From positions 1 through 26,515 of IMG/VR virus record IMGVR_UViG_3300050821_008731: DNA of 26,515 nt; one strand, written 5' to 3'. Origin of the DNA: a virus. Of the stretch, positions 8,717 to 19,499 are shown piece after piece. The stretch's first letter is position 1. Every line of letters starts with the position of its first letter. The notes below the pieces were generated by a model. That model searched no databases. It was not told the DNA's origin and was given only the letters and a program-made list of their open reading frames with translations. The translations under genes were made by a program, and so were the position numbers.

Positions 8717-8782
8717 CGCCGCATATTTGACGATTGCTTGACGAAACGAGGAATCTGGGCGTAAGTTGCCCCCGAAACGAAA

Positions 8783-8808
8783 TAACCCGCCGGGGGCGTG
8801 GCGGGTTA
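8783..8808 (+). terminator. Possible terminator or attenuator hairpin
   Basis: TAACCCGCC (8783-8791) pairs perfectly with GGCGGGTTA (8800-8808) around an 8-base loop. It lies 66 bases after the methyltransferase stop. No U-run follows on the plus strand, so it is a weak intrinsic terminator, a processing site or an attenuator ahead of the replication genes. Confidence 0.45.
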
Positions 8809-8830
8809 CTCCGTTAATACCGATGTAGCT

Positions 8831-8943: not shown

Positions 8944-9519
8944 ATGAACGCGATCAAAGAAGTTATTTCCTATCTCATCACCGGTGGTATGGACACGGCC
9001 GAGGCGGCCGCCCTCGTTGCTATGGCTGTAGCTGAGGGGAACTTACAAAAGCGATCCTCAGGGGCAGAAAGAACGGCGAGGTGGCGCGAAAAGAAGGCGT
9101 CACAAACCGTCACAGAACGTCACAATGTGACACCTACAGACGACCGTCACAAACCGTCACTAAGCGTCACAGAACGTCACAATGTGACGCAGCTCTCTCT
9201 CTCTGTAGATTCTAGTACGGTAGTAAAAGGTAAAGAAGAAAAGAAAGAGAGAGAGCCAAGGCGCAAGCCGCGTCACGGGCTACCAGCCGATTTCAAGTTG
9301 ACCGATGCGATGCGGCAGCTTGCCCTGGACCGCGGCGTCTCCACCGCTCGAATACCACAGGACTTTGACCGGTTTTGTGATTATCACCGCTCGAAGGCAA
9401 CCCTGTCGGCCGACTGGATGGCGAGTTGGAGGACTTGGGCTGACCGATCAGTCCAATACGCGCAACAAGCTGAGACGGCTCAGCGCCAGGCCTCTACCTA
9501 CGTCGACGGCCGCCTATGA
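8944..9519 (+). CDS. Replication initiator-like protein (O-like) containing the origin
   Basis: A 191-residue protein. Residues 1-40 form a helical domain (AIKEVISYLITGGMDTAEAA). Residues 41-105 are low-complexity linker with a repeated VTERHNVT segment encoded by DNA iterons. The C-terminal domain (LPADFKLTDAMRQLALDRGV to about residue 178, with FCDYHRSKATLSADWMASWR) matches the C-terminal helical domain of many phage replication initiation proteins. An initiator gene holding its own origin is the lambda O arrangement. The ATG at 8944 follows GGGGAA by a few bases. Next downstream, overlapping by ATGA, is the primase zinc finger. Confidence 0.75.
   Translation: MNAIKEVISYLITGGMDTAEAAALVAMAVAEGNLQKRSSGAERTARWREKKASQTVTERHNVTPTDDRHKPSLSVTERHNVTQLSLSVDSSTVVKGKEEKKEREPRRKPRHGLPADFKLTDAMRQLALDRGVSTARIPQDFDRFCDYHRSKATLSADWMASWRTWADRSVQYAQQAETAQRQASTYVDGRL
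9098..9256 (+). repeat. Iteron array with AT/purine-rich flank: probable replication origin
   Basis: CGTCAC occurs in direct orientation at 9098, 9108, 9118, 9145, 9155, 9165 and 9175. The spacing is exactly 10 bases within each cluster, so all sites in a cluster face one side of the helix. Each cluster ends in the palindrome GTCACAATGTGAC (9119-9131 and 9176-9188). Downstream, GCTCTCTCTCT (9192-9202) and AGAGAGAGAGC (9246-9256) are inverted repeats flanking an AT- and purine-rich stretch (9203-9245), a plausible unwinding element. One more CGTCAC lies at 9271. The array is inside the initiator gene, as in lambda ori. Confidence 0.75.
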
Positions 9520-9830
9520 AAACCGCCGACGACATCCTCCGCGAGTTCGGCGTGCAGATCCGCTCGAGCTCCCCGGGTCGGTATTACGCGATCTGCCCAA
9601 AATGCTCGCACAAGCGAAAACAATCTCATCAACGGCTCAAGTGCCTCGGCGTCACGATCGACGGCGAAGGTGTTTCAATGGGCTGCAATCACTGTGGTTT
9701 TACCGGAGGAGGATACTATGACAGCAAAGATACTAGGCCCTATCGGGGTGGAAGCGTTCGAACGGCGCGGAATCCAAGCCGAGACGGCCGCGAGGTTCGG
9801 GATTTATACCGCCAGCCACCTAGACGGTGA
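9516..9830 (+). CDS. Primase zinc-binding domain ORF
   Basis: A 104-residue ORF whose first 65 residues are a T7 gp4-type primase zinc finger: YYAICPKCSHKRKQ with C27-x2-C30, then VSMGCNHCGFTGGG with C57-x2-C60. This domain recognises the primase template trinucleotide in T7-like enzymes. Residues after about 75 are arginine-rich and do not look like a folded domain, because here the frame overlaps the TOPRIM-helicase gene (starts 9718). A CCC-U sequence at 9738-9741, in phase with this frame, could allow a +1 shift into the helicase frame, giving a 563-residue fusion close to T7 gp4A in size. Start overlaps the initiator stop (ATGA). Confidence 0.75.
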   Translation: MKTADDILREFGVQIRSSSPGRYYAICPKCSHKRKQSHQRLKCLGVTIDGEGVSMGCNHCGFTGGGYYDSKDTRPYRGGSVRTARNPSRDGREVRDLYRQPPRR

Positions 9831-11208
9831 AGTTGTCCCAGACCCGTCTGGTAGCATCGTAGTTTTCCCGTTTTTAGAGCGGGGCCTGACCGGCAAAGAA
9901 AAATACCGCGCGCCAGGCAAGAAGTTCTGGCAATCGACTGGCGGCCGCCGAACTTTCTGGAACTCAGACGCGCTCGACGATCCCGCTCTCGAGGAGGGTC
10001 GCATGCCGCTCGTCATCACCGAGGGGGAGATCGACGCGCTGACCGCGATCGAATGTGGCTTCCCGCTTTCGGTGTCGGTCCCCGACGGCGCACCTGGCGT
10101 ACAGGAAGACGAAGACCCGGAAGATCTCAAGCCGCTCGGCGACGACACATCGGGGAAATTTGAGTTTGTTTGGAACAACCGCGATCGTCTGAAGAAGGTT
10201 AGGCGGTTTATTCTGGCAGTCGATTCGGACCGCCCAGGAAGACGCCTAGCGGCCGAACTTTTGAGGCGCCTATCGGCGTCAAAGTGCTATTTCGTCGAAT
10301 ACCCGCTAGGTTGCAAGGATTTGAACGATGTCCTGCAGCAAAAAGGATCGGAGGCAGTTACCGCAGTGCTCAACGCAGCCAAACCGTATCCGGTGAAAGG
10401 CCTTTACCGCCTTTCAGATTACCCGGCCCGGCCCGGTGTCTCAGTCTATTCGACAGGATGGTGGACACTCGACAACCATCTGCAATTATTCCCCGGCGAG
10501 TTCATGGTGGTGACCGGCATCCCAAACCACGGCAAGAGTACGTGGGTTTTAAATTTGCTCTCCAATGCGGCCAAGCTGCATGGGTGGCACTCGGCAATAT
10601 TCTCACCGGAAATGCCCACGGTCCCTTATCTAAGGAACAAGCTGCGGCGCATCAACAATATCCACGACGGTATCGGAGATGCTTTCATCGACGAATATTT
10701 CAGATTTATCGATTCGGACCCGACGGGCGCCGAGGATGATGATTTTGATTTGAATTGGATTATCGACAAAGCCACCGAGGCGGTGTTGCGCGACGGGATC
10801 CGATGCCTGCTGATCGACCCGTGGAACGAGGTTGAGCACGCACGCGAGCGCAACGAATCAATGACCGACTACATCGGCCGAGGCATTCGAATGCTCAAGA
10901 GGTTTGCCAGGCAATACGACGTCGCGGTGATCGTGGTCGCCCATCCGACCAAGGACATTGCAAAGGACGGGAAAAGCCGAGCGGTGAACCTGTACGATAT
11001 CGAGGGGTCGGCCCACTGGTTCAATAAATGCGACCATGGCATAGTGATAGATCGGCCTAACTCGTATGCTGACGAAGCTGTTGTCCGTATCGCGAAGGTT
11101 CGGTTTGAAGAGACTGGGGTAAAGGGTGAAGTGAAAATGAGTTACGACCGCGTATCGTCAAAATATCTAACTCTGGATGGATCCACCGATGCCGGCCAAA
11201 TCACCTGA
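9718..11208 (+). CDS. TOPRIM primase-helicase (T7 gp4/Twinkle-like)
   Basis: A 496-residue replicative DNA helicase with an N-terminal TOPRIM primase domain. TOPRIM residues: ITEGEIDALT (about 100-109, catalytic E102) and AVDSDRPGR (D169, D171). Helicase: Walker A GIPNHGKST from about 267, Walker B CLLIDPWNE with D367, and HPTKD downstream typical of RecA/DnaB-like phage helicases. It unwinds the fork and lays down primers. The ATG at 9718 has GGAGG 5-6 bases upstream and lies inside the zinc-finger ORF, like the internal start of T7 gp4B (503 aa). It overlaps the next gene by 20 bases. Confidence 0.92.
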   Translation: MTAKILGPIGVEAFERRGIQAETAARFGIYTASHLDGEVVPDPSGSIVVFPFLERGLTGKEKYRAPGKKFWQSTGGRRTFWNSDALDDPALEEGRMPLVITEGEIDALTAIECGFPLSVSVPDGAPGVQEDEDPEDLKPLGDDTSGKFEFVWNNRDRLKKVRRFILAVDSDRPGRRLAAELLRRLSASKCYFVEYPLGCKDLNDVLQQKGSEAVTAVLNAAKPYPVKGLYRLSDYPARPGVSVYSTGWWTLDNHLQLFPGEFMVVTGIPNHGKSTWVLNLLSNAAKLHGWHSAIFSPEMPTVPYLRNKLRRINNIHDGIGDAFIDEYFRFIDSDPTGAEDDDFDLNWIIDKATEAVLRDGIRCLLIDPWNEVEHARERNESMTDYIGRGIRMLKRFARQYDVAVIVVAHPTKDIAKDGKSRAVNLYDIEGSAHWFNKCDHGIVIDRPNSYADEAVVRIAKVRFEETGVKGEVKMSYDRVSSKYLTLDGSTDAGQIT

Positions 11209-19423: not shown

Positions 19424-19499
19424 TGCGTGGGTGGAGCAGCGGCAGCTCGTCAGTCTCATAAGCTGAAGGTCGAGGGTTCAAGTCCCTCCCCCGCAACCA
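19424..19499 (+). tRNA. tRNA with anticodon CAU, initiator-like body
   Basis: D stem GAGC/GCTC, anticodon stem TCAGT/GCTGA with loop CTCATAA (anticodon CAU), T arm GAGGG-TTCAAGT-CCCTC, 3' acceptor strand CCCCGCA and an encoded ACCA end. The 5' acceptor strand TGCGTGGG pairs with CCCCGCA only if one T is bulged. Body and loops resemble bacterial initiator tRNA(fMet) (TGGAGCAGC, GCTCGTC, CTCATAA, GAAGGTCG). It has a U1-A72 pair instead of the C1-A72 mismatch and lacks the three G-C pairs in the anticodon stem. It may be an elongator-like or tRNA-Ile2-like derivative. It probably supplements host translation. Confidence 0.85.

Follow-up and report, generated by a model that had tools for sequence, protein, structure and literature searches.

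Does a phage gene that carries a dense array of the hexamer CGTCAC within its coding sequence contain the replication origin on which its own product acts? The question is raised by the gene at 8944..9519 (+ strand) of phage record IMGVR_UViG_3300050821_008731, which was analysed over its whole length of 26,515 nt (hereafter the window; all coordinates are window positions). A few model phages are known to have their origin within a gene, and each of them uses an initiator of its own. The region studied here is likely to be such an in-gene origin: the encoded 191-residue initiator would bind the CGTCAC iterons, most likely via a basic helix, and replication would start from there.

DNA anatomy of the array and the adjoining segment

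The array consists of two iteron clusters on the + strand, each ended by an inverted copy on the - strand: cluster 1 (9098..9123; CGTCAC at 9098, 9108 and 9118) by the inverted half TGTGAC (9126..9131), and cluster 2 (9145..9180; CGTCAC at 9145, 9155, 9165 and 9175) by the inverted iteron TGTGACG (9183..9189). Pitch is exactly 10 bp inside both clusters, the iteron core comprises 6-7 bp, and GTCACAATGTGAC is found at 9119 and 9176, i.e., once at each cluster end. These seven positions, their 10-bp phasing and the closing element had been reported in an earlier, sequence-only reading of this DNA and proved exact; a distal single iteron (9271..9276, + strand) is added as the eighth copy.

Chance does not account for this density. 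Over 100 bp, the array holds a single 6-mer eight times (counting both strands), compared to at most four elsewhere in the window and to maxima of 3-5 in Markov-1 simulations of the whole window. When residues 51-83 were resampled synonymously with the protein held fixed, the observed eight copies were reached in none of 100,000 trials. A pitch of 10 bp takes CGTCAC through each of the three codon phases (read as RH, VT and AS/PS), and peptide repetition therefore cannot be the cause of the DNA array. The peptide VTERHNVT, whose repetition in the linker had likewise been recognized before, is present at residues 56 and 75, with 23 of 24 coding bases identical. Thus, selection acts on the DNA of the array and not on the linker peptide. 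Folded as a single strand, the array region yields z = -4.6.

Directly behind cluster 2 lies an AT-/purine-rich segment (9203..9245), a candidate unwinding region with 67 % AT and 72 % purine (the whole initiator gene has 44 % AT). It is enclosed by a perfect 11-bp inverted repeat with arms at 9192..9202 (GCTCTCTCTCT) and 9246..9256 (AGAGAGAGAGC), 100 % complementary and 43 nt apart, in agreement with the earlier description; neither segment nor arms are assigned to a strand. In close relatives, the segment past the last inverted iteron is also AT-rich (mostly 67-81 %) and flanked by inverted arms of differing sequence (CCTCTCTCTCTT, CGCTGTTTCGCCT, CGTTGTTTTGC and others). Recurrence of the inverted repeat among the 10 relatives tested is significant (combined p 3.5e-6; four individually at p <= 0.01), and a further iteron beyond it is present in the window as well as in L261, L262 and L263. 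As a general trait of the wider class of arrays described below, the inverted repeat was rejected, since it was significant in only 3 of 27 tested members and holds for close relatives only. In the wider class, pyrimidine- or purine-rich DNA often follows the array. Many of these post-array tracts (L117-L200) code for SPSPSP, SLSLSL, TETETE or DRDRDR and are microsatellite-like, as in the lactococcal phage gene Tuc2009 rep.

GC skew, which the sequence-only reading had proposed as a check for an origin, does not turn at the array site; its cumulative minimum is at about 6-6.5 kb, where gene direction switches. No Rfam match was obtained at the array site, and scans for bacterial promoters and terminators returned nothing useful. 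A strong hairpin (AACGAAATAACCCGCC / GGCGGGTTACTCCGTT) is located at 8776-8815 between the methyltransferase and initiator genes; the T-run of a classical terminator was not found with it. The 26.5 kb record also contains a lone tRNA-Met (CAT) gene at 19424-19499.

Initiator domains and neighbouring genes

The open reading frame at 8944..9519, PHROG matches and an AlphaFold model (built with 13 sequences) define an initiator predicted to comprise four parts: (i) an N-terminal helical hairpin of no known family (residues 2-30; 8947..9033, + strand), modelled as helices 2-13 and 18-30 and conserved in relatives, (ii) a basic helix (residues 39-53, SGAERTARWREKKAS; 9058..9102, + strand), proposed as iteron reader from the model and from the motif-word covariation described below, (iii) a linker with a predicted disordered stretch (residues 55-98), which is the part coded by the array, and (iv) a DnaT-like C-terminal domain (residues 108-188; 9265..9507, + strand), modelled confidently (pLDDT 94-97).

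Pfam assigned no family of its own to the window initiator, and in particular no match to Phage_rep_O up to E 1; Phage_rep_O is also absent among the families matched by 61 aligned class members. With PHROGs, the protein matches phrog_3992 (phage primosomal protein) weakly (E 7e-4); of the 13 proteins in the family alignment, 12 match the same group (best E 4.5e-18), and 10 match a PHROG annotated as replication initiation protein. The assignment of the C-terminal domain is based on structural matches and on PF17948 in relatives. Its best solved match is the DnaT ssDNA-binding domain (6aeq; Z 5.9, rmsd 3.1 over 67 residues), a match that is only moderate, since two sigma-factor chains score 5.2-5.3. 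DnaT also leads the Foldseek matches (prob 0.75 to 4ou6), and the modelled domain resembles DnaT bound to dT10. PF17948 is not matched by the window protein itself; five of the 13 family members match it below the curated cut-off (best E 3.6e-5, 23.8 vs 25 bits).

Downstream, a Toprim plus DnaB-type helicase (primase/helicase) is encoded at 9718..11208 (+ strand; PF03796, E 4.5e-11; Toprim_2, E 2e-7; PHROG primase/helicase, E 1e-77), the start of which is placed at the in-frame GTG 9670 in the ORF list. The small ORF at 9516..9830 (+ strand) contains a zinc-finger-like CPKC...CNHC sequence and, without a clear family match, probably represents the zinc-binding part of the primase. The zinc-finger-like (9516-9830) and Toprim-helicase (9718-11208) parts of the primase-helicase are thus separate, overlapping ORFs.

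Relatives, the wider class and the basic motif

No relative was found when the whole window protein was searched against viral contigs, a motif search of genome contigs yielded no confirmed relative, and 15 N-termini, once aligned, proved too diverse to serve as query. A protein search with the motif only retrieved 11 relatives, all 11 of which carry a CGTCAC array directly past the motif, mostly at a pitch of 10 bp and in some cases at 9-14 bp. Their linker peptides differ, and the DNA word is the same. The case which the sequence-only reading had named as its refutation, related phages encoding the protein without the array, thus did not occur among these 11. The one exception noted is L043, which retains N-terminal hairpin and C-terminal domain but has neither the basic motif nor any array. 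Among relatives of the helicase, the upstream initiator is swapped as a module. Two more distant relatives found in this way also have the short N-terminus and retain the plan, with a different word: GTCAGC with closing palindromes GTCAGCTGAC in L019, and TTCCACCGG at 11 bp in L020.

Two further arrangements were observed. The initiator-like gene at L035:2620-2980 contains two unlike in-gene arrays (GTCCGCCAATTTGGCAGA and AATTCGAAAAACGAACAAAGGTTAACG). In Pseudanabaena phage Pam5 (L277:1424-1560), three near-identical GGGGTCAGAATGTGACCCC palindromes, outside annotated coding sequences, adjoin a relative of the C-terminal domain.

The array of the window is one member of a widespread class and not an isolated oddity. 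In viral contigs, at least 119 stretches contain CGTCAC three times at a pitch of 10 bp, compared to 25 for the reversed control word CACTGC, and a basic stretch is encoded upstream in the same ORF for 60 of the 119 CGTCAC stretches listed vs 3 of the 25 controls; the search pattern biases the spacing statistics of this array-found set in favour of 10 bp. Matches to four CGTCAC copies in genome contigs were mostly microsatellites of the type (CGTCA)n or tandem repeats of other kinds and were excluded as evidence. The N-terminal parts of the motif-bearing proteins (with CGTCAC or CGTTAC arrays) fall into 15 unrelated clusters; among class members, the N-terminal family of phage replisome organisers is matched by three and the DnaA N-terminal domain by one.

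The sole common feature adjoining the array is the basic motif A-x-R-x-x-x-[W/Y/H/F]-R-x-[R/K]. The motif is also present, with differing residues, in initiators that carry CGTTAC arrays: Val is found at motif position 3 in 8 of 13 CGTTAC vs none of 48 CGTCAC proteins (p 4e-7), and His/Phe at position 6 in 10 of 13 vs 1 of 48 (p 3e-8), counts which derive from array-found sets selected by word and are not fully independent, since the Val/CGTTAC proteins L281 and L290 are related, as are L306, L313, L345 and L349. Covariation persisted when permuted within the N-terminal clusters (p 2e-4; four informative clusters). In a set of 79 genes collected blind to motif and word, CGT[CT]AC arrays are present in 4 of 9 motif-positive vs none of 70 motif-negative genes (p 8e-5). 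Five copies of a third word, CGTTTC, accompany a Val motif in L017 (among the nine motif-positive genes) and in L092, the motif of which is a near-match outside the strict pattern.

The covariation suggests that the basic helix recognizes the iteron, the simplest reading being that motif position 3 senses base 4. Whether this extends to a general rule appears evenly balanced to us: a short basic helix that stands alone (A-x-R-x-x-x-[W/Y/H/F]-R), handed on among otherwise unrelated phage initiators and undescribed before, may read in-gene CGTnnC iterons at one-helical-turn spacing, Val at position 3 going with T and Thr, Ala, Gln or Lys with C at iteron base 4. A putative iteron reader shared across unrelated initiators is apparently undescribed so far; the pairing of motif and array was not found in the literature searched.

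Proposed mode of action and comparison with known systems

Other functions of the array are conceivable. That the VTERHNVT peptide was selected and the DNA repeat arose as by-product is extremely improbable: the peptide repeat is real, but the hexamer occupies every codon phase, resampling never yields the observed count, the linker is predicted to be disordered and relatives share the DNA word with different linker peptides. The occurrence of CGTCAC in phages with unrelated N-terminal domains could also indicate binding by a host protein in place of the phage initiator; however, residues of the basic motif in the phage protein itself vary in step with the word, and none of the 70 motif-negative genes retrieved in the same way has a CGT[CT]AC array, rendering this highly unlikely. 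Somewhat more credit, although still little, may be given to control by the initiator of its own gene (as transcription roadblock or copy-number switch), with replication starting elsewhere. The location of the array inside the initiator's own gene and the GC skew without an origin sign would fit such a role, but a plain operator has no need of the AT-rich segment and inverted repeat that follow the array in a layout as in lambda and Tuc2009, and a helicase gene lies downstream.

A variant that is compatible with an in-gene origin concerns the reader only: the N-terminal hairpin may recognize the iterons, while the basic helix provides non-specific affinity. In lambda O, the iterons are read by a folded N-terminal domain, and many class members possess a folded N-terminal domain of their own. 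However, one word is common to proteins with unrelated N-terminal domains (the 15 clusters in all), and L043 has the same hairpin with neither motif nor array; we therefore regard this variant as rather doubtful, if less so than the alternatives above.

For the preferred in-gene origin, the following course of events may be envisaged. The N-terminal part of the initiator, most likely basic helix 39-53, would bind the CGTCAC iterons; the basic helices would read the major groove and meet the same DNA face at each 10-bp step. Once loaded with protein, the array could strain the DNA such that the adjacent AT-rich segment opens, and once the strand is open, its inverted repeat could fold back as a hairpin. 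The exposed single strand may then be held by the DnaT-like C-terminal domain and passed to the primase/helicase encoded just downstream, whose recruitment would lead to initiation.

If true, origins and their readers would be predictable from sequence in many unannotated phages, and few sequence-specific initiator modules would be smaller than this reader, a helix of about 15 residues. The origin and its reader would adjoin each other within one gene and be transferred together from phage to phage, as one cassette; this would explain the swapping of replication specificity among phages.

The bZIP basic region of eukaryotes offers an analogy only, in that a short site would be read by a single basic helix; the CRE half-site is CGTCA, and L019 displays a sub-threshold bZIP_Maf match (E 0.005). 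In contrast to bZIP proteins, the window initiator lacks a leucine zipper, its helix stopping at residue 53 with the disordered linker next, and the sites are tandem direct copies and not CRE palindromes. Of 64 proteins, a single one (L128) shows the bZIP signature N-x2-A-x3-[SC]-R; the window protein does not. DnaT (PF17948) resembles the window protein in its ssDNA-binding domain, to which the C-terminal domain aligns, but is a host primosome protein without iterons, and identity in the structural alignment is below 10 %.

Mycobacteriophage proteins annotated as replication initiation or RepA-like (Brujita, Xeno, Nazo) have a related C-terminal domain (33-42 % identity to the relative L171) and have in-gene repeats of their own, e.g., GGGGAACA, but differ in N-terminal domain and repeat and have no CGTCAC array. 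The mycobacteriophage replication initiation genes L272, L273 and L276 contain GGGGAACA in tandem as well as TTCGCGA-like sites and therefore probably represent in-gene origins too. RepA origins were tested in other phages (Miko, Rachaly and Jeeves), where the origin is likewise placed within repA or beside it (PMC7157519).

The scan used for the window, when applied to accepted in-gene origins, finds the arrays of lambda O, the record of which annotates the iterons, and of Tuc2009 rep, the record of which states 'contains origin of replication'. The rep genes of the lactococcal phages Tuc2009 and TP901-1 resemble the window in that the initiator gene is annotated as containing the origin (Tuc2009) and in the succession of short repeats (CAACCA x4) and a purine-rich tandem tract; they differ in their words, in a DnaD-like annotation and in having no such basic motif beside the array.

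In lambda, the iterons are located mid-gene in O, beside an AT-rich tract required for unwinding (PMC7466680). The window likewise has its iterons midway in the initiator gene, an AT-rich tract directly after them, a protein linker coded by the array and adjacent replication genes. Unlike the four annotated 18-bp iterons of lambda at 20-24 bp pitch, the window has a 6-7 bp core at 10 bp as well as inverted closing copies, and a primase/helicase takes the place of the loader P. Accordingly, the earlier designation as lambda-O-like origin holds for the plan (an origin-like array in an initiator gene, with an adjacent helicase, kept by relatives) and not for the protein, which has a DnaT-like C-terminal domain in place of Phage_rep_O and a putative DNA-binding part that is not homologous to lambda O. 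The plan of this probable origin is of the known lambda kind; its parts are new, and its putative reader is different.
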